Origin: Fischerella sp. JS2
GTDB lineage: Bacteria > Cyanobacteriota > Cyanobacteriia > Cyanobacteriales > Nostocaceae
Assembly: GCF_032393985.1 (NCBI RefSeq)
Contig: NZ_CP135918.1
Span: 3,658,001-3,722,000 of the forward strand
Reading direction: 5' to 3'
Length of the DNA: 64,000 nucleotides
Numbering within the stretch: the stretch's first letter is position 1; every line of letters starts with the position of its first letter. The notes beneath the pieces were generated by a model, which saw only the letters and a list, made by a program, of their open reading frames with translations, had not been told where the DNA came from and searched no databases. Below, piece after piece: positions 25,075 to 37,519 of this stretch. Position numbers and translations under genes: made by a program.

Positions 25075-25623
25075 TTATGCTGACGCGAAAAGTTTCTCAA
25101 TCGAGACTTCAATATCTGAAAATGCTAATGGTATGATTTTCCCTTCACTGATTGTCTGCTCTTTCAAATACTTGCCGTCTTGAGGTTCTCGAAACACAAT
25201 AACTTTTTTAGTGGATAGACTTAAAATCCAGTACTCTTGAATTCCAGCCTTTGCATAGATAGATGCTTTAACCTCTAAATCTTTCTTCAAGCTTGTTTTT
25301 GCAACTTCTATAATCCAGAAGATATCTCTAGGGGCAGGATGACGATCATTATAGGCAGACTCTGGAAGACGCACAATCGCTATGTCAGGTTCAGGTTCAG
25401 AATCAGATAGCGTCACAGGGCCATTGAAGCGAACGTCAGCCCTATCTGATAGTAACTCCTCTAAGTATTTTGCACCTCGTCTAGCAGTGGTGTAGTGAAT
25501 TGGAGTTTCTGGACTCATTTCTACAATTTCACCCTCTAGCAATTCTACATGACGACCATGCAGAATGCCTGCCTCAATCATGCGATGATAGTCGTCCACA
25601 GACCACTTAGCTAGAGTTTTCAT
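25075..25623 (-). CDS. Uma2 family endonuclease (DUF820)
   Basis: 182-residue member of the Uma2/DUF820 family, which is expanded in cyanobacteria and has a PD-(D/E)XK restriction-like fold. Family marks are the N-terminal DYHRMIEAGILHGRHVELLE, the EIVEMSPETPIH block, EPEPDIAIVRLPES (acid residue) and IFWIIEVAKTSLKKDLEVKA (E-x-K active site). Physiological role unknown. The gene is flanked by two 50-bp direct repeats 980 bp apart, as if it moved in or was captured between them. Start ATG 25623. Confidence 0.93.
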   Translation of the reverse strand: MKTLAKWSVDDYHRMIEAGILHGRHVELLEGEIVEMSPETPIHYTTARRGAKYLEELLSDRADVRFNGPVTLSDSEPEPDIAIVRLPESAYNDRHPAPRDIFWIIEVAKTSLKKDLEVKASIYAKAGIQEYWILSLSTKKVIVFREPQDGKYLKEQTISEGKIIPLAFSDIEVSIEKLFASA

Positions 25624-25692
25624 AGCAGAATTGTGTACATTCTTGTGATCAATCTAGCTCAATTTTATAGTTTCTTGGTTGGGAAGTGCCTA

Positions 25693-25844
25693 AGAAGATG
25701 TCTGAGAAGTATTAAATATTTCTTTTGATCCCCCCTAGCCCCCCTTGAAAAGGGGGGAAATTATCTCAAAGTCCCCCTTTTAAGGGGGATTTAGGGGGAT
25801 CTACAAGTCTTAAATACAACACCAAAAAGTTTTCAGACATCCTC
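25693..25844. mobile_element. MITE, about 152 bp, TA-flanked, with GATGTCTGA inverted ends
   Basis: The ends AGAAGATGTCTGAGAAGT and (inverted) GAGGATGTCTGAAAACTT are complementary in type and flanked by TA on both sides. The interior consists of two C/G hairpins (CCCCCTTTTAAGGGGGATTT and CCCCTTGAAAAGGGG). No coding capacity. TA flanks and ends fit IS630/Tc1-type transposition in trans. Confidence 0.78.
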
Positions 25845-25955
25845 TAATCTATATAAAACTCTTGGACAGTAAAACATCTATATATTACAGTTGTGCGATC
25901 GCTTTTACCTAAACTAACTGAGTAAGTATCGTTAAATAATTCAGACAGAATTTGA

Positions 25956-26005
25956 AGATAAGCGATCGCCACTACTGTTGATCGTTAAAGTTAGTTACTG
26001 GATAA
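25956..26005 (+). repeat. Direct repeat copy 2 (partner 24976-25025)
   Basis: Near-identical to 24976-25025 and including a HIP1 site. Its right edge lies six bases from the attC-like structure at 26012. Confidence 0.9.
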
Positions 26006-26011
26006 CGACCC

Positions 26012-26086
26012 AGCTAACTGGCGGTAGGTAACCTTTGCATCTTCATCAGGATCTTTCGTCCGTCCGGTTCAGCGTCCTTGTTAGGT
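26012..26086 (-). other. attC-like recombination site downstream of S41 gene
   Basis: On the minus strand the 75-bp segment starts ACCTAAC and ends GTTAGCT, outer arms complementary in six of seven bases. Inner blocks AAGGACGCTGAACC and GGTTACCTACCGCCA pair partially (GGTT/AACC, imperfect CG-rich part). This is the layout of an integron attC (R''-L''-loop-L'-R'). The pairing is imperfect, so the call is moderate. Confidence 0.45.
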
Positions 26087-26098
26087 CACTCGTTGACA

Positions 26099-27028
26099 TT
26101 ACTCCGAACGAGAGTGAGCTACTTGCTTCAATAACCAATCTACAGCGGCATACAATACATCATCTTGCTCAGAATCTGATTGATTTGTAACCAGTTGATC
26201 AGGCACCACGATATCACCATAAAGTTGACCAAAGCGGTCAGCATAGGTTGAGATTGTCAGAAATAGCATGGCTCCATCGTTAAGCAGAAAGTCCTCATTG
26301 GCTGTTGACAATCCTCCAGTATTTTCTCCAAAGCTACGAGTGTTACGACGGCCACGAAATGCAATGGCTATTGCTTCACCAGAACTCACTGTTAATTGGC
26401 TGGTTAGGACAGCTACAGGTACATTAGGATTACTCAAGATGTAAGGAAAACCTTCTACTTGAGCGTATACTTTATTGTCCATCTTTGCTTGACCGTTCTT
26501 GTAGATCCAGTAGTTTTTCTGACCCTCTGGAGTAACGAAAGCACCAACCTGCCCCTCACCCAGAACTGGACCAATGCCTGCTAGCATGGGCCACATATTT
26601 CCGCCATGATTCAACCGAAGGTCTACAATCCAGCCACATGGTTCTTCAGCATCAATCCTGCGAATGATGTCTTGGAGCAATGAAGCGTATTGATTACTTT
26701 GCTGTTGATTGATGCATCCAAATTCCGGTAGGAGAATAAATCCAATCTTCTTTTCAAGCAACTTACCTTCAGGTTCTCGGTTGTGACTAACTGTCTCATT
26801 CTCAAGCTCTTTTGCTTGGGTAGGGGTGAGGAAAAAACTATGCTTGTTGCCGATTTGGCTTAGCAGATGGCGAATAGCATCATACGTGTCTGAAGTTGCC
26901 TGTGCAGCTTTAGCCTCGTGTAGCGCGTTGGTTTGCAACAACTCCCAGTTAACACTTTCTCTGTTGATTGAATGCGCTTGTATGATACCGAGTACCTCAT
27001 TGAGATACTTTAATGCTTCGGGTGACAT
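26099..27028 (-). CDS. S41 family peptidase
   Basis: 309-residue serine peptidase of the S41 (tail-specific/tricorn core-like) family, without signal peptide or PDZ domain. The core is visible: GFILLPEFG strand, WIVDLRLNHGGNMWPM (typical DLR.N.GG), LTSQLTVSSGEAIAIAFRGR containing the catalytic Ser, and RSFGENTGGLSTANEDF. NKHSFF near residue 62 may supply the His of the S41B type. It is located between fabD and plsC, and its downstream end carries an attC-like site. Its GC content looks higher than that of its neighbours, so acquisition as a gene cassette is possible (inference). Confidence 0.88.
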   Translation of the reverse strand: MSPEALKYLNEVLGIIQAHSINRESVNWELLQTNALHEAKAAQATSDTYDAIRHLLSQIGNKHSFFLTPTQAKELENETVSHNREPEGKLLEKKIGFILLPEFGCINQQQSNQYASLLQDIIRRIDAEEPCGWIVDLRLNHGGNMWPMLAGIGPVLGEGQVGAFVTPEGQKNYWIYKNGQAKMDNKVYAQVEGFPYILSNPNVPVAVLTSQLTVSSGEAIAIAFRGRRNTRSFGENTGGLSTANEDFLLNDGAMLFLTISTYADRFGQLYGDIVVPDQLVTNQSDSEQDDVLYAAVDWLLKQVAHSRSE

Positions 27029-27221
27029 AAGGATGTTCGCACGACGATGATTTATCTCACGTTCTTAACCGAGCTGGTCGAGGAGTGCGGAGCCGACTTG
27101 GCTAGTAAAAAATCTATCATTGCAATTGTGCGATCGCTTTACCCCTGAACCATAACTATAGTTCTTTTTGGGGTAAGCAAGGGTTAGCGTGATCGCTCTC
27201 TAATTCTCCAAATCGTAAAAG

Positions 27222-28100
27222 CTAAGTAGGTAACTCAGCTAAATTACGGATATTTTCTAAAACTAAATTTGAGCAAGTGCGTTTAATCAAGCCAGTTAAT
27301 ACGTTACCAGGTCCTATTTCCACTACTCGCTCAATCCCATGTTCTGGTAATGCCAGTGCAATTTCTCGCCAGCGTACTCCCCCTGTCATTTGTTGGATGA
27401 GGCGTTGCTTTAAGATTTCTGCTTCTGTCGCTGGGGTTGGTTCAATATTAGATAAAACTGGTACTTTAGCTTTATGAAATTCTACTGAGGCTAATATTTC
27501 TTGAAACTGAGTTGAAGCTTCTGCCATTAAAGGTGAATGAAATGCACCAGAGACTTTTAAAGGAACTGCCCGTTTTGCCTTAACTTGAGATATGACTGCT
27601 TGCACGGCTGTAGGTGTGCCAGAAATGACAACTTGACCAGGACTATTATCATTTGCGACAACTACATCAGGGGTTTCGGCAATCACTTTTTCTAGTTGTT
27701 CGCAGTCAAAATTCATCAAAGCCGCCATCATCCCACCAACAGCGCTGTCCATCAGTTCGGCACGGCGTTTGACTAAGCGTAAGCCCGCAGACCATTCAAA
27801 CACGCCAGCAACGTAAAGAGCAATGTATTCCCCTAAACTGTGACCAGCAACTAAATCTGGTTGTTGTTTTTCCTGTAGGAGATCAGCCAGAATGCTTTCT
27901 ACTACATATAAGCAAGGCTGAGTGTAGATAGTATGCGATAGTTTGTCGGCATCATTTTGACAAATTTCAATTACAGACCAGCCTAAAATTTCTTCGGCTT
28001 GAGCAAATTTATCTTTTACTAAAGGTATGTTTATTAAATCCATTCCCATTCCCAATGATTGGGAACCTTGTCCGGGAAATACCCATGCAGTTTTAGTCAT
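27222..28100 (-). CDS. fabD: Malonyl-CoA:ACP transacylase (FabD)
   Basis: Transfers malonyl from CoA to acyl carrier protein at the entry of type II fatty-acid synthesis. 292 residues. The N-terminus AWVFPGQGSQSLGMGMDL and the nucleophile elbow VAGHSLGEYIALYVAG (Ser near residue 92) are diagnostic, and KVSGAFHSPLMAEAS supplies the catalytic His. EIGPGNVLTGLIKR near the end is also conserved. Third gene of plsX-fabH-fabD on the minus strand; the 170-bp gap to fabH is filled by 7-mer repeats. Start ATG 28100. Confidence 0.96.
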   Translation of the reverse strand: MTKTAWVFPGQGSQSLGMGMDLINIPLVKDKFAQAEEILGWSVIEICQNDADKLSHTIYTQPCLYVVESILADLLQEKQQPDLVAGHSLGEYIALYVAGVFEWSAGLRLVKRRAELMDSAVGGMMAALMNFDCEQLEKVIAETPDVVVANDNSPGQVVISGTPTAVQAVISQVKAKRAVPLKVSGAFHSPLMAEASTQFQEILASVEFHKAKVPVLSNIEPTPATEAEILKQRLIQQMTGGVRWREIALALPEHGIERVVEIGPGNVLTGLIKRTCSNLVLENIRNLAELPT

Positions 28101-32256: not shown

Positions 32257-32634
32257 TCAGATTGTCGGTAGCTGCTTCAATACTACAGTACCACCTGCCA
32301 CTGCTTGTATAGTTAACTCATACCCTTCCATCAACAACATGCCAACCAGAGGATCTGAATCGGCTTCATCGATTGGAATCCTCAGCAATTGACCATCCCA
32401 GACAATAACAGCTTCATAGACATCAAAAATGGTGCCGCTACCATCTGCTAGGATTGCTCGTCCGCGACGTTTCCAAGTTAACCCGAGTGTCGTAATCAAG
32501 TCCGGTGGTAGGGAGAGCCAGCCATTAAAACCTGTATCTACAATTGCGTTCTGTTCATATATCTGTCCGTTGGAATCAAGAATCTTGATACGGATGATGG
32601 GTTCATAATCAGCGTTAACATACCCACTAATCAT
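32257..32634 (-). CDS. Clan AA aspartic protease (retropepsin-like)
   Basis: 125-residue single-domain aspartic protease-like protein. The active-site motif is NAIVDTGFNGWLSLPPDLI (D-T-G with a hydrophobic strand), followed by a GRAILADGSGTIFDVYEA flap-like hairpin and PLVGMLLMEGYELTI. Retropepsins work as dimers, which fits the short length. I choose ATG 32634 (MISGYVNADYEPII); the longer frame adds 22 residues in the partner gene. The start overlaps the stop of the upstream gene in ATGA, so the two are translationally coupled. Role unknown. Confidence 0.85.
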   Translation of the reverse strand: MISGYVNADYEPIIRIKILDSNGQIYEQNAIVDTGFNGWLSLPPDLITTLGLTWKRRGRAILADGSGTIFDVYEAVIVWDGQLLRIPIDEADSDPLVGMLLMEGYELTIQAVAGGTVVLKQLPTI

Positions 32635-32906
32635 GCTGTTCTCTGAGTATGATCCGCTCCAAATCGACGTACGTACCGAGAACCAACACGTACGATCCAA
32701 ATTTGCGCGTTTGGGTTACGAGCTTCCAAACGAGCGCAAGCGGCAATTTCATCGGCATCAATCTCCCATGCACCGGTTTCAATGTCAATGGCAACAATTT
32801 GACCTATGTGATCTGGCTCAACGAGGCGACGCACCTCACGCTCATAAATTTCATCCCCTCGTTGAGCAAATTCTTCTTTGCTATAGCGTGGTTGCCGAAT
32901 TACCAT
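32631..32906 (-). CDS. Hypothetical protein coupled to aspartic protease
   Basis: 91-residue protein MVIRQPRYSKEEFAQRGDEI..., rich in Glu and Arg. The middle reads HIGQIVAIDIETGAWEID and then IAACARLEARNPNAQIWIVR. I recall similar small proteins paired with clan AA proteases in cyanobacteria but no function. Its TGA stop overlaps the ATG of the protease gene by the four-base ATGA junction. The arrangement resembles a toxin-antitoxin or regulatory pair, which is inference only. Confidence 0.8.
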   Translation of the reverse strand: MVIRQPRYSKEEFAQRGDEIYEREVRRLVEPDHIGQIVAIDIETGAWEIDADEIAACARLEARNPNAQIWIVRVGSRYVRRFGADHTQRTA

Positions 32907-32946
32907 TGTTTTCTATTTTATTTACTTGGGTTTATCAACCTAAAGT

Positions 32947-32974
32947 TTAGCAACTTGCTAATACAGTGTTGGGC
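32947..32974 (-). other. Possible attC remnant after SDR gene
   Basis: On the minus strand GCCCAAC (32974-32968), a good R'' box, lies 27 bp after the SDR remnant's stop. It is followed by the palindrome TTAGCAA-C-TTGCTAA (32947-32961, plus reading). No matching R' box was found, so at most half a site remains. Confidence 0.3.
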
Positions 32975-33000
32975 TACTGAATGCAGAATTGATATAAGAA

Positions 33001-33398
33001 TCAAAAATGAGCGAGATAGCCACCCTCAACCGCCAAAACTTGACCAGTGACGTAGGAGGCAGCAGTCGAAGCAAAGAAAACGACAGCACCAGCAATTTCT
33101 TTCGGTTCTCCCCATCGACCAAGAGAAGTTCGTTTTTCTAGCCAAGCAGCTTACGGCGATCGCGCATACCAACATTATTGACGAGGATATCTAATCGCCC
33201 GTGTTTTTCTCGGATTTCGCTAAACGCGTTTTGAACTGTTATTTCATCTGAAACATCAAACTGCAATGGTAAGGCGGATTTCCTCATCGAGTTAATTATT
33301 GCAACTGCACGATTTAGCCTTTCACTGTTCCGGCCATGTACAAGAACAAAAGCACCAGATCCAGCAAGTGCCTTGAGAACCTCGTTGGCATCAATCAT
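33001..33398 (-). pseudogene. SDR family oxidoreductase, internally deleted
   Basis: The first part reads VLKALAGSGAFVLVHGRNSE through DVSDEITVQNAF and GRLDILVNNVG, the nucleotide-binding half of a short-chain dehydrogenase. It then stops at 33138. In another frame the sequence continues [20 protein letters not shown] and [20 protein letters not shown], the C-terminal end of the family. The catalytic Ser-Tyr-Lys region between the two is missing, as is the N-terminal TGxxxGxG. So it has lost the start and about 90 central residues and is frameshifted. It lies in the cassette cluster downstream of an attC. Confidence 0.88.
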
Positions 33399-33457
33399 AG
33401 TTTGCCTTTTCTTGGTTAGTTTGCTCTCTCCTGTTGCACAGCAGGTGAGCAGTATTT

Positions 33458-33495
33458 GTATAACCGAAGCCGACTTCTTGCATTGGCTGTTATGG
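33458..33495. repeat. Small attC-like hairpin
   Basis: Outer ATAAC/GTTAT and inner AGCC/GGCT arms pair around a short loop (GTATAACC...GTTATGG). It resembles a miniature attC but, at 38 bp, is shorter than functional sites. Confidence 0.35.
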
Positions 33496-33510
33496 AAGCA
33501 TCTTTACGTT

Positions 33511-33597
33511 GCCTAAAATTAAGTCAACCGCTGCTAGTAACTTCTCGGACTCAACGAAGGAACTCTGTACGGTCGGTGTGCAAGCGGATTGTTATGC
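33511..33597 (-). other. attC site 2 (integron cassette recombination site)
   Basis: Read on the minus strand: R'' GCATAAC, spacer AAT, L'' CCGCTTGC, a loop of about 45 bases, L' GCAGCGG, spacer, and R' TTTTAGGC. L'' and L' are fully complementary except for one extra T in L'', the extrahelical base typical of attC. R' matches R'' in five of seven positions. Length 87 bp. It follows the arr cassette and the tRNA-like gene. Confidence 0.6.
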
Positions 33598-33622
33598 TGC
33601 GTTGGCACTAATATCTAAAAAT

Positions 33623-33693
33623 TGAAGGGGCAGGGCTCGAACTTGCGTCCAGTCGGTCTAGAGCCGACCGCTATACTACTGAGCTACCCTATT
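33623..33693 (-). tRNA. tRNA-like gene, anticodon CUA, degenerate acceptor stem
   Basis: Folded by eye: D arm GCTC-AGTAGTA-TAGC (three pairs), perfect anticodon stem GTCGG/CCGAC with loop CTCTAGA, variable loop TGGAC, T arm GCAAG-TTCGAGC-CCTGC with one mismatch. The anticodon is CUA, which would read UAG; position 37 is G. Only four acceptor pairs (AGGG/CCCT) form. It may be a decayed or phage/array-type suppressor tRNA. Between the arr gene and attC 2. Confidence 0.6.
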
Positions 33694-33745
33694 TCTCATT
33701 CTACTTTATTGCTTTGATCCTGCAACCTTTTATGAAGTTCCTGGT

Positions 33746-34189
33746 TCAGTCGTCTATTGGCTCAACACCAAGTCGCTCAAGCCGTTCAAGGCCGTCCTTC
33801 ATGGCTTTGAGTGCTTCAGGAGAGTGCCCCTGCCAATTCGTGATCTCGCCCGTAACCCGTAGAGGCGCTCGGGAACGGAATGACTTTGTCGGATTACCCC
33901 GAAACTTCTGATTCGTCAGGTTGGGGTCATCTTCAATCGGGCCAGTCGGTTCCACAATGTAAATTCTACCGGGAGCATCACCGATTGCTAGCTCCGCTCC
34001 CCACGTGGCTGCATCCAAAGTGCGGGTCAGATAGACGTAGTTTGCTGTCCTACCCTTCTTGCCAAAATTAGAGGTATGGCCCGGCATAATCAGGTCGCCT
34101 GGTTTTAGGTCAGCCCGAGTGCCATGGTAAAGAGGCCACTCCGTGACCTCGCCCGTGACCCGCAACGGCTCGCGGGAACAACATGACAT
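33746..34189 (-). CDS. arr: NAD+-rifampin ADP-ribosyltransferase (Arr), intact second domain
   Basis: The 147-residue open part after the internal TGA contains a complete Arr domain: PLYHGTRADLKPGDLIMPG (NAD-binding HGTR), ANYVYLTRTLDAATWGAELA, RIYIVEPTGPIEDDPNLTNQ, NPTKSFRSRAPLRVTGEI, then a C-terminal extension ALKAMKDGLERLERLG. Arr inactivates rifamycins by ADP-ribosylation and is often carried on integron cassettes (family knowledge). Its first 18 residues (MSCCSREPLRVTGEVTEW) are the end of domain 1. Translation would need initiation at ATG 34189, for which I see no strong ribosome site. Confidence 0.85.
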   Translation of the reverse strand: MSCCSREPLRVTGEVTEWPLYHGTRADLKPGDLIMPGHTSNFGKKGRTANYVYLTRTLDAATWGAELAIGDAPGRIYIVEPTGPIEDDPNLTNQKFRGNPTKSFRSRAPLRVTGEITNWQGHSPEALKAMKDGLERLERLGVEPIDD

Positions 34190-34483
34190 CGACGGATGAC
34201 CTGGAGACTTCTGGTTCGTCAGGTCTGAGGCATCTTCAATCTGGCCGATCGGCTCTACTATGTAGACTCTGCTGGAACCTTCGCCGACCGCGATTCCTGC
34301 CTCTCAAATGGCTTCATCCAAATTGGGAGTCAGGTAGACATAGGTTGTCTTCCTGTGCCGCTCACCAACGTTCGGAGAATTGCTGGGTTCGATCAGGTCT
34401 CCTGGCATCAGATCAGCCCGCGTGCCGTGGTAGAACCGCGTTTTACTCAGGTCGTCGGTGGCACCAAGAATGCCTTTACTCAT
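33746..34483 (-). pseudogene. arr: Tandem double-domain rifampin ADP-ribosyltransferase with internal TGA
   Basis: One continuous frame from ATG 34483 (ribosome site AGGAGA) to 33746 encodes two Arr domains in tandem. Domain 1 starts TRFYHGTRADLMPGDLIEPS, and codon 60 is TGA (34306-34304), where domain 2 has the Trp of TWGAELAIGD. After it the frame continues VYIVEPIGQIEDASDLTNQK to SREPLRVTGEVTEW and runs directly into domain 2. TGG to TGA is thus the likely damage. Domain 1 also has weaker signatures (KSPGHPSMSCC instead of KFRGNPTKSF). The tandem fusion probably arose by duplication within the cassette. Confidence 0.85.
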
Positions 34484-34591
34484 GATTACATTCTCCTGAT
34501 CTGCGATGAGTGCCTAACGGCGAAAGTGAGCGGCGGCAGATAACCTTGACCTCAGCACCAGAAACTTTCAACCGTCCGCTGCATTTGAATT

Positions 34592-36525
34592 GTGTACGCC
34601 CGGCATGGGCGTGAACTAATGGGGTGAAAGTCCCCTGGAGGAGAACCAGCGTCCAAATGCTCGAAAGTCTTGGAGCCGAGTGACGACAACTCCTAGCTTA
34701 AGGCAAGGGCACTTCTGTGAGGAAGGGTCTGAAGGAAGCCAGCGGCAAATCTGCAAGCCGACGAACAGAAACGTCATAGAAGGCTGAGACAGTCCTGGGG
34801 CGAGTTGGCACAACACAACGAAGCCCTCTGGTTCAGGGAACACAGTAAATGACGCGGTTGTGCAGAGACAGTTCACACTCTTATCCGGGGAGGTCTGTCG
34901 GGTTGCGGTTCTCACTGCGATGGGAGTCTGATTGAGGTCTAGCTGGAAACGGCTAGGGAGCCACAGAACCCTAAGGCAGCAAGAACAGCACATTTGGGGG
35001 AAACCCCGATGTTAAGCCCGCCAGAAGTCAGCAGAAGCCATAGTAGTCCCACTGGGATGAAGGGCTGAACATGAACGAACTAAGGAGGAGTGATGAACAA
35101 CTCAAGCCCATTGATGAACCCGGACGGGGGAGATCGGGTTTGGCGTGATGACAGAGAACCAGCCTTAGATAACCTGATGGCGCGAATCTTAGAGCGCGAC
35201 AATGTCAAGCGGGCATGGGCAAGGGTGAAGTCCAACCAGGGTGCCCCCGGCAGTGACGGGATGAGCCTAGAGGATTTTCCAGCTTATGCCAGAGAACATT
35301 GGAGTGAGATTCGCCAATCCCTACTCGATGGCAGTTACCAACCTCGCCCTGTCAGGCGGGTGGTCATTCCCAAGCCCCAGGGCAAGGGAGAAAGAAAGCT
35401 AGGTGTCCCTTGTGTCGTAGACCGGGTAATCCAGCAAGCCATCCTCCAAGTACTATCGCCCATCTTTGAGCCAGAGTTTTCTGACTCAAGCTATGGGTGC
35501 CGCCCGAATCGTTCGGCTCACGGAGCAATCCGACAGGTGAAAACGATCCTCAAATCGGGATACCGCATCGCGGTGGATCTGGATCTGGAAAAATTCTTTG
35601 ATACTGTCAACCACGATGTCTTGATGTCCCGGATCGCCCGTAAAGTAGCTGATAAAGTGCTATTGCGGTTAATCGGTCGTTACCTGCGAGCCGGAGTTTT
35701 GGTCGGAAGCACCGTTGAACCGACCGAATGGGGGACGCCGCAAGGCTCTCCACTTTCACCTTTGTTTTCCAATGTCTTATTGGACGACTTGGACAAGGAA
35801 CTCGAAGCAAGAGGGCATCGCTTTGTTCGCTATGTAGATGACCTAGTCATTCTGGTCAAAAGTAGACGGGCAGGGAAACGGGTGATGGTGAAAATCAGCC
35901 GTTACCTCACACAAGTCCTCAAGTTGAAGGTTAATCGGGAAAAGAGCCGAGTGGTCAAGATCGAGGATCTGAATTACCTGGGATTTACGTTCCGAGGGAT
36001 TCGCATCTTCGCCTCTGACATTGCCATGCAAGCGTTCAAACATCGATTGCGCGGCTTAACGTCACGCAGTTGGGGCGTTTCTATGGCAGAGCGATTCGAG
36101 CGATTGAACCGATACTTGCGCGGGTGGATGAACTACTTTGGCATTTCCCAGCACTACACCCCGATTGAAGAGCTAGATGGTTGGTTAAGGCGAAGGATTC
36201 GCATGTGCTATTGGAAGCAGTGGCGCAGACCGAGAACCCGCATTGCTAACTTGCTCAAACTGGGGACAAGTAAGCGTCATGCAATTTTGACCGGCATTAG
36301 CCGCAAAGGTTATTGGCGGTTGTCGAAAACGTTAGCGACGCAAACGGGAATGACCAATGAATGGTTGGAACAACAGGGATTGTTATCAATTCGGAATCTT
36401 TGGATGAAAGTTCAAGGATACGCTTAACTATCAGTGTTGTTTGCGCGTCTTCATGAACCGCCCATTGCGGACCCGCACGATGGGTGGTGTGGGAGGGGGG
36501 AGTTAAATGCTCTCCTCGACCCGAT
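34592..36525 (+). mobile_element. Group II intron, bacterial class C-like, inserted in attC
   Basis: The 5' end is GTGTACGCCCGG. Domain I-IV RNA (about 500 nt) precedes the maturase gene. After it, domain V is recognisable as GAACCGCCCATTGCGGACCC pairing with GCACGATGGGTGGTG, then domain VI with TTAAATGC, and the 3' end is CGACCCGAT (AY end). The intron lies on the plus strand and the cassettes on the minus, within the R'' box of an attC. That is the orientation and target known for IIC-attC introns. It appears full length and possibly active. Confidence 0.9.
35093..36427 (+). CDS. ltrA: Group II intron reverse transcriptase/maturase
   Basis: 444-residue intron-encoded protein that helps the intron splice and copies it into new sites. 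Reverse-transcriptase blocks in order: RVVIPKPQGKGERKLGVP, GCRPNRSAHGAI, AVDLDLEKFFDTVNHDVL (first catalytic Asp), GTPQGSPLSPLFSNVLLDDL, and RYVDDLVIL (Asp249-Asp250). Then the maturase (X) domain FERLNRYLRGWMNYFGISQH. There is no HNH endonuclease domain and the protein ends EQQGLLSIRNLWMKVQGYA, as in class C introns. ATG 35093 follows the strong ribosome site AAGGAGG. GC content is higher than the surroundings, consistent with transfer. Confidence 0.95.
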   Translation: MNNSSPLMNPDGGDRVWRDDREPALDNLMARILERDNVKRAWARVKSNQGAPGSDGMSLEDFPAYAREHWSEIRQSLLDGSYQPRPVRRVVIPKPQGKGERKLGVPCVVDRVIQQAILQVLSPIFEPEFSDSSYGCRPNRSAHGAIRQVKTILKSGYRIAVDLDLEKFFDTVNHDVLMSRIARKVADKVLLRLIGRYLRAGVLVGSTVEPTEWGTPQGSPLSPLFSNVLLDDLDKELEARGHRFVRYVDDLVILVKSRRAGKRVMVKISRYLTQVLKLKVNREKSRVVKIEDLNYLGFTFRGIRIFASDIAMQAFKHRLRGLTSRSWGVSMAERFERLNRYLRGWMNYFGISQHYTPIEELDGWLRRRIRMCYWKQWRRPRTRIANLLKLGTSKRHAILTGISRKGYWRLSKTLATQTGMTNEWLEQQGLLSIRNLWMKVQGYA

Positions 36526-36596
36526 TGGGCAGCACGTTGCATATGCCTTTATGAACCTCTTTCGACCACAAACAGTCTAGACACGGCGATTTGCGA

Positions 36597-37145
36597 CTAA
36601 TCGCTGTATGGTGGCACTCCTGTCGGTCGATATTCCAGAAGCAGGACGCGCCCATCCAGAACCCTGGTTGAGAGCAGGTCGAAGCCCATGTCTGGCAGCC
36701 CTGCAAAGATCGGTTCGACACCTGTTTGCGGGAGAATCAAGGGACAAACAACGAGTTTGAGACGATCCACTAGGTCAGCCGCGAGTAGTTGCCGGAGCAG
36801 CGACAGGCTACCCAGAGTCCGCAACTCACAACCGTCAGTATGCTTCAGTTCACGCACAAAGCCCACCAAGTCATCGCGAACGATGCTTAAGCCCGACCAG
36901 TTTGCCGCCTTCAGCGTCCGCGAGAACAGCCAGCCAGGTGTTGTCGTCATCGTTTTCCATCCTTCGTCCCGCGCCTCATCGGGCAGTCCATTTAGCATCT
37001 CATAGGTTCGGCGTCCGATGAGCATCCGATGCGGAACGGCTGTGTTGGTCTTGATCCAGTCAGCAAAATCAGGACCAAAATAGCCAAAATAACCAGGTGA
37101 ACGCTGACCTTGGGCAAAGCCGTCAAGACTGACAATTAGTTCACA
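36597..37145 (-). CDS. Dihydrofolate reductase/RibD C-terminal family protein
   Basis: 182-residue protein of the RibD-C/DHFR-like superfamily, NADPH-dependent reductases of unknown substrate, frequent in integron cassettes. The start is GTG 37145, giving KLIVSLDGFAQGQRSPGYFG; the middle has MLIGRRTYEMLNGLPDEARD, then SIVRDDLVGFVRELKH, LRTLGSLSLLRQLLAADLVD (nucleotide binding GS) and LVVCPLILPQTGVEPIF. All family regions are present, so the gene looks intact. Its downstream attC is site 1, now split by the intron. No strong ribosome site is seen, but a hairpin lies just upstream (37151-37175). Confidence 0.88.
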   Translation of the reverse strand, partial: CELIVSLDGFAQGQRSPGYFGYFGPDFADWIKTNTAVPHRMLIGRRTYEMLNGLPDEARDEGWKTMTTTPGWLFSRTLKAANWSGLSIVRDDLVGFVRELKHTDGCELRTLGSLSLLRQLLAADLVDRLKLVVCPLILPQTGVEPIFAGLPDMGFDLLSTRVLDGRVLLLEYRPTGVPPYSD

Positions 37146-37150
37146 AACAA

Positions 37151-37175
37151 GTTCAGGCTGTGCAACCCTGAACTA
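37151..37175. repeat. 8-bp stem hairpin upstream of the DHFR-like gene
   Basis: AGTTCAGG and CCTGAACT flank a nine-base loop. It lies six bases before the GTG start. It could mark the upstream cassette boundary or influence translation; it does not match a full attC. Confidence 0.5.
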
Positions 37176-37280
37176 GACGAACAGCAACCTTCTAGAGTGG
37201 CTCAAAACCGTAGGTCTTTTTTCCTTCTTCAATCTTTCAATGCCTGATTCAGTTACGCCGCATGCCGCCCAACTACTTAT

Positions 37281-37416
37281 TATACGGAAAATTCCGTATA
37301 TCTTACTATAAGGAGATAAAAAGCCGAAACTTTCTGTATATCTCCCCATAAGGGGAAAAAAGCCGAAATCTTCTATATATCTGCCCATGAGGGTATAAAA
37401 AGCCGAATGTTTCTAC
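37281..37416. repeat. Palindrome plus three about 40-bp tandem repeats
   Basis: A perfect palindrome TATACGGAAAATTCCGTATA (37281-37300) overlaps three tandem units at 37298-37337, 37338-37376 and 37377-37416. Each starts ATATCT, has an ATAAGG/ATGAGG core, then AAAAAGCCGAA. No gene is supported in the 374-bp gap between the cassette cluster and the lptC-like gene; a frame through the repeats encodes 13-residue repeats but has no better support. Confidence 0.8.
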
Positions 37417-37519
37417 TTAACATCCCATACTCAATACGACAACCCAAGAGTAAATATTTTGTCTTAGGTTGGCAATTGAAGGGTGGCGATCGCCTACCTT
37501 TTTTTAGTTAACTATTGAT

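Follow-up and report, generated by a model that had tools for sequence, protein, structure and literature searches.

The question raised by this locus is what kind of group II intron interrupts an attC recombination site of a cyanobacterial chromosome, and whether it came there by seeking out such sites. In the window, as we call the whole 64,000-nt stretch of Fischerella sp. JS2 DNA that was analysed, the R'' box of an attC is interrupted by a group IIC intron that is complete, encodes its own maturase and runs antiparallel to the cassettes. We regard the element as very probably a recently active group II intron of the IIC-attC kind. According to the available portions of the papers concerned, IIC-attC introns are inserted in the bottom strand of attC, in the R'' box, at the consensus TTGT/T (PMC7923331), and their R'' target, their orientation and their occurrence in integrase-less clusters have been described (PMC7923331, PMC8876359); likewise, integrons are known in cyanobacteria (PMC2426708, PMC8352920). 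The literature that we searched, which was partial in coverage and had the primary IIC-attC papers outside it, reported no cyanobacterial IIC-attC intron; the kind of element is already known, and the cyanobacterial host may be new to print. The parts of the intron and of its insertion site are the following, in window coordinates.

34512..34593, minus strand: attC body on the intron's 5' side, with counted pairs, within a match to the R2 attC model at 34512-34599 minus (63.7 bits)
34594..36525, plus strand: group IIC intron, 1932 nt, GTACGCCC...CCCGAT, present in four genomic copies that do not differ in a single letter, though their flanks do
34711..34879, plus strand: ribozyme segment, Rfam group-II-D1D4-3 (125.4 bits, gathering 32)
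34810..34813, plus strand: EBS1 (ACAA), pairing with exon TTGT, a pairing examined below over 32 introns
34989..35065, plus strand: ribozyme segment, Rfam group-II-D1D4-1 (57.1 bits, gathering 35)
35090..36427, plus strand: intron-encoded reverse transcriptase (RT)/maturase, 445 aa, YVDD present, without an endonuclease domain match
36457..36488, plus strand: domain V hairpin, from the fold of 36449-36525 (z -4.12)
36490..36523, plus strand: domain VI hairpin, from the same fold
36526..36530, minus strand: the last five bases of the R'' box (plus-strand TGGGC), which with 34592-34593 read GTTGGGC

The attC body contains the R' box (34512-34518, GTTAGGC on minus) and the L' and L'' arms with an extrahelical base, and its last two bases, GT on the plus strand at 34592-34593, are the first two of the interrupted R'' box. 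The 3' end of the intron consists of domains V and VI and ends AY (...CCCGAT); in the predicted fold, an unpaired GA on the 3' side of the domain VI hairpin is likely the branch-point region. The 3' exon begins with T in 4/4 copies.

The only Pfam matches of the RT at E 0.001 were PF00078 (RVT_1) and PF08388 (the maturase domain GIIM), and no endonuclease domain was matched at that threshold, which agrees with the earlier note, a reading of the letters of this DNA. The protein also matches the NCBI group II RT/maturase model at 402.7 bits (cut-off 300). By sequence, its nearest solved relatives are the GsI-IIC RT (449 bits) and 7uim, which we take to be a IIC RT (357), followed by LtrA (142) and 6me0 (119). 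The protein thus places the intron in class C, and ribozyme parts, namely the Rfam segments and domains V and VI, are present at both ends.

For comparison, relatives were gathered by a protein scan, from which the best 80 of 524 loci were taken; together with two loci from a draw of genomes across the phylum and five plasmid loci these make 87, and ends were read in 57. The other 30/87 comprise some loci without an end, some that were not tried and four dropped after an earlier reading. The labels attC-side and terminator-type, as used here, stand for RT clades of an earlier tree or for membership of the same genome. The present RT tree has 57 rows, with L005, L006, L026 and L062 dropped on account of long branches and of a misreading of L026, and L020, L025 and L124 left out for stops. 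In it, the window RT belongs to a clade of seven cyanobacterial rows (support 86), nested in a clade of nine (support 100) whose other two members come from an Eisenbacteria MAG and a Spirochaetaceae MAG. A split with support 86, under a root chosen by the analyst, sets the terminator-type rows apart from the window, and the class 1 integron introns fall with the window. The IIC-attC-like placement that had been proposed for this intron is thereby borne out in its class, by the solved structures and the tree, and, as shown below, in its attC target.

The class 1 integron introns on plasmids L125, L126 and L128 and S.ma.I2 (PMC8876359, in the portion available) resemble the window intron in the length of the RT/maturase, in the GTACGCCC 5' end and in TTGT/T. 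The three plasmid introns are annotated opposite to the cassettes and beside intI1, the same arrangement as here. They differ in that their RT is about 51-53% identical to the window RT and that theirs is a plasmid integron, whereas the window system has a cyanobacterial host, with a chromosomal integron and remote cassette clusters. An outward promoter has been reported for the IIC-attC lineage in the accessible part of one study (PMC8876359); a scan for sigma-70-like promoters in 33400-37400 gave 0, against 2.7 in shuffles, with a consensus that may not suit cyanobacteria.

The ends of the intron had been put at 34592-36525 in the earlier note, with the junction TT/TGGGC. An intron beginning GTGTACG at 34592 starts two bases early, as judged from the relatives, the EBS1 register and an intron-free sister allele, and the comparison of sequences places the 5' end 2 nt later, at 34594, making the target TTGT/T. 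The junctions then read ...ATTGT / GTACGCCC...CCCGAT / TGGGC. The first line of evidence is that the constant start in relatives is GTACGCCC or GTGCGCCC, while the two bases before it vary, being GT in most attC-side introns and TG, GG, CG and others elsewhere; in the L061 tandem described below, moreover, a CCCGAT end abuts GTACGCCC with nothing in between. The second comes from an EBS1 loop pattern in domain I, GCGAG-NNN-GC-EBS1, which gives ACAA in the window. It was matched in 32 introns, six of them from one Anoxybacillus genome and so not all independent. Over these 32, the four terminal bases of the 5' exon form 109/128 Watson-Crick pairs with EBS1 in the corrected register, as against 43 in the 34592 register and 19-47 in the other registers tried, and 5000 shuffles gave at most 93 pairs, none reaching 109. 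The two elements also covary: ACAT occurs with ATGT (L028), CAAT with ATTG (L064) and CGAA with TTCG (L074). Misfits are the inner copy of L061 (1/4) and L059 and L067 (2/4 each). A comparison of this sort offers a simple way of fixing the ends of such introns.

The third line is the intron-free sister allele. A genome of the same order (G005) carries the DUF433-DUF5615 cassette of intron copy 2 without the intron, with an attC match of 36.8 bits, and its junction, GGATTGTTAGACATCTG, equals the joined copy-2 flanks without a gap; the remaining G005 attC has diverged. A further genome, of the same genus (G392), has an intron-free attC that matches the copy-2 attC body at 97% identity over 69 nt; it sits after an Arr-like gene and is therefore a different cassette from that of copy 2.

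Removing the intron at the corrected ends restores a consensus R'' box in the window. Measured against GTTRRRY, the boxes of the four copies score 7/7 (GTTGGGC, the window's, and GTTAGAC) or 6/7 (GTTATAC, GTTAGCT), and the target of copy 4 reads GTGT/T. The 3' flank of copy 1 had been considered as a displaced box; once the end was corrected, it proved to be an ordinary R'' box (GTTATAC). In the window attC, 14/15 tested pairs form with the corrected ends and 13/15 with the 34592 ends; there is one T-G mismatch in the R box, and the spacer between the R and L boxes is unpaired. To call the pairing of the arms perfect but for the extrahelical A was thus too strong. The earlier note had also named, as evidence against its reading, ends shifting until the excised site is no attC; the end moved by 2 nt and the attC improved.

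That the interrupted site is an attC, reading minus where the intron reads plus, was assessed with two models; the earlier note likewise had the cassettes minus and the intron plus. The R2 model, on which we rely, was made from seven intron-free attC sites of this genome only; the earlier R1 model, which recovered the sites too, used sites joined at 34592-type ends and had 3/4 intron sites in its training set. R2 scored 63.7 bits for the window (E 1e-15), 62.4 for copy 1, 61.6 for copy 2 and 45.9 for copy 4 (E 1e-15 to 2e-10), and all four matches lie opposite to the intron (4/4). When R2 was run on 400 kb of the genome, sampled at even spacing as 20 pieces of 20 kb each, it gave one weak match (20.9 bits, E 0.018). 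Over the whole 7.02-Mb genome, R1 found at least 15 attC matches at E 0.1 or better, two of them weak, with 150/520 candidates scored, so that more weak sites may exist. In an 11-row alignment of the four joined sites and the seven intron-free attC, 87.8% of pair cells form, compared with 76.8% in shuffles and 26-52% in slid versions, and both sides change in 6/8 L-stem pairs and 1/7 R-stem pairs. Folded as naked DNA, the attC strand (34505-34591) was no more stable than shuffles (z 0.08), which counts against this reading; the case for attC stands on the boxes, the model and the covariation. At the site there is a short (4-nt) IBS1-EBS1 pairing and, upstream in place of IBS2, the attC hairpin, which the model supports and the energy of the naked fold does not.

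An ordinary terminator-type IIC intron might have met attC hairpins by chance, and IIC introns are indeed described, in the available portions of two papers, as inserting after terminator hairpins as well (PMC7923331, PMC4424553). Terminator-type introns (in Anoxybacillus, Brevibacillus, Moorella and other loci, a 10-row RT clade) have the same RT class as the window intron and, where the pattern matched, the same EBS1 loop. GsI-IIC presumably belongs to this group. Against chance encounter, 4/4 copies here lie in attC, in a genome in which attC matches number at least 15 in 7.02 Mb (among the 150/520 candidates scored), and no further copies, after terminators or otherwise, were found in this genome. 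The exons differ too: those of terminator-type introns end in T-rich runs, and among the loci read the exon ends TTGT in 0/10 of them versus 25/47 on the attC side, the exception being L094, which has a terminator-type RT and is outside the ten. Among attC-side introns with both ends, 27/45 agree with GTTRRRY at 6 or all 7 positions, and several of the low values reflect 3' ends that the pattern probably misplaced (e.g. L041, L098, L099); 0/10 terminator-type introns score above 5 of 7 to the R'' consensus. We therefore consider it extremely unlikely that a terminator-type intron came here by accident. As a side observation, the 5' start is GTACG in 41/47 attC-side introns and GTGCG in 9/10 terminator-type ones; GTGCG is also the start of five attC-side introns, all from a single clade that is mostly proteobacterial.

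The genome is one contig of 7,020,691 bases with four intron copies, which show zero differences over the whole intron. Their genome coordinates, given with 34592-type ends, are as follows.

1590438-1592371, minus strand: copy 1
2652505-2654438, plus strand: copy 2
3692592-3694525, plus strand: window copy
4750002-4751935, minus strand: copy 4

The attC bodies and the genes differ on both sides of the four copies, which argues for four separate insertions. The identity of the copies suggests recent spread; gene conversion could be an alternative cause. It might instead be supposed that there was a single insertion, after which the integrase or recombination moved the intron-bearing cassette to its other places. 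Only the R'' box is split, and the R' box is whole at 4/4 intron sites, so that a cassette could in principle still move, and an intact IntI is present. Movement of the cassette would, however, carry along both the attC body and the flanking genes, and it is these that differ; the window and copy-1 sites share 20 bases adjoining the intron and not the rest. The flanks largely refute a single insertion followed by cassette transport, and we give it very little credence.

The intact intI gene lies 7.5 kb from copy 2 (TIGR02249, 475.8 bits, cut-off 265). The array there has 6 attC matches, all minus, at 2652425-2660811, that nearest intI being weak (21.7 bits), and intI is on plus at 2661924. Copies 1, window and 4 lie in small remote cassette clusters, with one further attC match beside copy 1 and one beside copy 4; no IntI match was found within the window. 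We noted that the four copies are near-evenly spaced, at 1.59, 2.65, 3.69 and 4.75 Mb (gaps of 1062, 1040 and 1057 kb; simulated p 3e-4), a post hoc figure that is not used as evidence. GC skew at 28 places gave no clear pattern for the strand of the copies relative to replication.

A third account takes the intron-attC units to be relics of cassette making and not invasions of finished cassettes. In the model of Leon and Roy, as it is described in the available portions of two later papers (PMC3053210, PMC7923331), the intron brings a gene and an attC together by recombination, and each copy here does stand between a gene and the attC body belonging to it, as the model requires. Three observations weigh against it: the R'' half-box is kept in 4/4 3' flanks, the copy-2 cassette is intron-free in G005 at the same junction, and no copy stands at a terminator in this genome. 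The kept half-boxes and the G005 junction fit the invasion of a finished cassette, and a cassette-making origin for these units appears hardly credible.

From the target, the ends, the class and the four identical copies we infer a course of events for IIC-attC invasion. The intron RNA and its own RT would recognise the folded attC bottom strand, through the hairpin and the pairing of EBS1 (ACAA) with IBS1 (TTGT), and would reverse splice into the R'' box at TTGT/T. DNA copying might then be primed from the nascent strand at the replication fork, which we propose because the protein is without an endonuclease; reverse splicing and replication-fork primer biology are described for endonuclease-lacking IIC introns in the accessible part of one paper (PMC4424553). 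By repetition, the intron would pass from one attC to another along the chromosome, beside the integrase and into the remote cassette clusters. Each insertion splits the non-cleaved R'' box and spares the cleaved R' box. We can also imagine, tentatively and with considerable doubt, that the split attC is still recombined by IntI, so that the intron is a passenger in a mobile cassette, movable by the integron and able to shift genes onto other attC via its identical copies. This thought arises because only the non-cleaved R'' box is cut, R' and the L arms are intact, and the first bases of the intron replace R''. If it were true, a retroelement would be moved by the integron itself, and a gene could be moved to another attC by recombination between copies. 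The complete chromosome offers four identical copies in separate attC and an intact integrase, and for at least one site a sister allele without the intron exists in another genome; these make both target choice and the proposed cassette-making role directly testable outside clinical integrons.

How widespread such introns are among cyanobacteria was judged from several samples. Of 386 genomes drawn across the phylum, 3, the window's own included, carry the intron (E 1e-150) and 23 carry IntI; all 3 intron-bearing genomes are among the 23 with IntI (p 1.9e-4, or 3.1e-3 without the window's genome). Cyanobacterial relatives with an RT 72-90% identical to the window RT were found in FACHB-502, Leptolyngbya FACHB-321, FACHB-471, Leptolyngbyaceae SM1_4_3, Nodosilinea LEGE 07088, G215 and G296, the last two with one match each; the RT of L020 carries stops. 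An attC-model match is present at the 5' end in all seven cyanobacterial relatives with that end available, weakly in L018 (23.0 bits) and L098 (19.3 bits). The expectation that such an intron would be unusual in a cyanobacterium holds only in part, in view of these seven cyanobacterial genomes with attC-associated relatives and of the 3/386 in the phylum draw. An IntI match, partial in some cases, was found in 5/7 genomes with relatives, and none at 1e-30 in FACHB-321 and FACHB-471, which means that the integrase may be unneeded or that the drafts are incomplete. A DNA search of 60 drawn relatives found the intron only in the window's genome; 2/59 of the others had matches under 50 bases, and both same-genus genomes among those 59 gave no DNA match. 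Beyond the phylum, attC-like insertion sites lie beside related RTs in contigs labelled with many phyla, many of them metagenome bins whose labels may be wrong. One such contig, L061 (a Gemmatales MAG), has three related introns head to tail, with starts near 1298, 3328 and 5357, about 2030 bases apart; the junction that was read, CCCGAT/GTACGCCC, runs from one intron directly into the next with no exon between.

The cassettes around the intron in the window have the following features.

26000-26086, minus strand: further attC match by the attC model, in the same orientation as the intron-bearing attC
33511..33597, minus strand: intact attC of the Arr cassette, 40.1 bits with R1 and 60.3 with R2, whose training set includes it
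33746..34189, minus strand: next cassette, Arr-like rifampin ADP-ribosyltransferase (PF12120, 174.4 bits)
36597..37025, minus strand: cassette gene on the R'' side, RibD_C/DHFR-like (PF01872, 37.4 bits), in a frame open to about 37170 and with an uncertain start

A second Arr-like stretch extends upstream to about 34485 with an in-frame stop, so that a single cassette carries a tandem pair of Arr-like stretches (33746-34485, minus); an Arr-like gene also precedes the intron-free attC of G392 (L170). Within the Arr cassette, just ahead of its attC, there is a tRNA-like gene at 33622-33693 minus with anticodon CUA, called tRNA-Pyl by ARAGORN and scoring 39.7 bits with the Rfam tRNA model, with an acceptor stem that pairs poorly; no tRNA was found in 16 other scanned loci. 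In G391, a genome of the same genus, about 200 bases stand in place of window 32280-37500, so the whole cassette block is absent from it, and G395, of the same family, has largely different contents there, with an attC at the same place as the window block. In both of these genomes, different or shorter DNA takes the place of 25095-27223 and of 32280-37500, and the part in between can be aligned; the two replaced stretches appear as two variable cassette spots, 5 kb apart.
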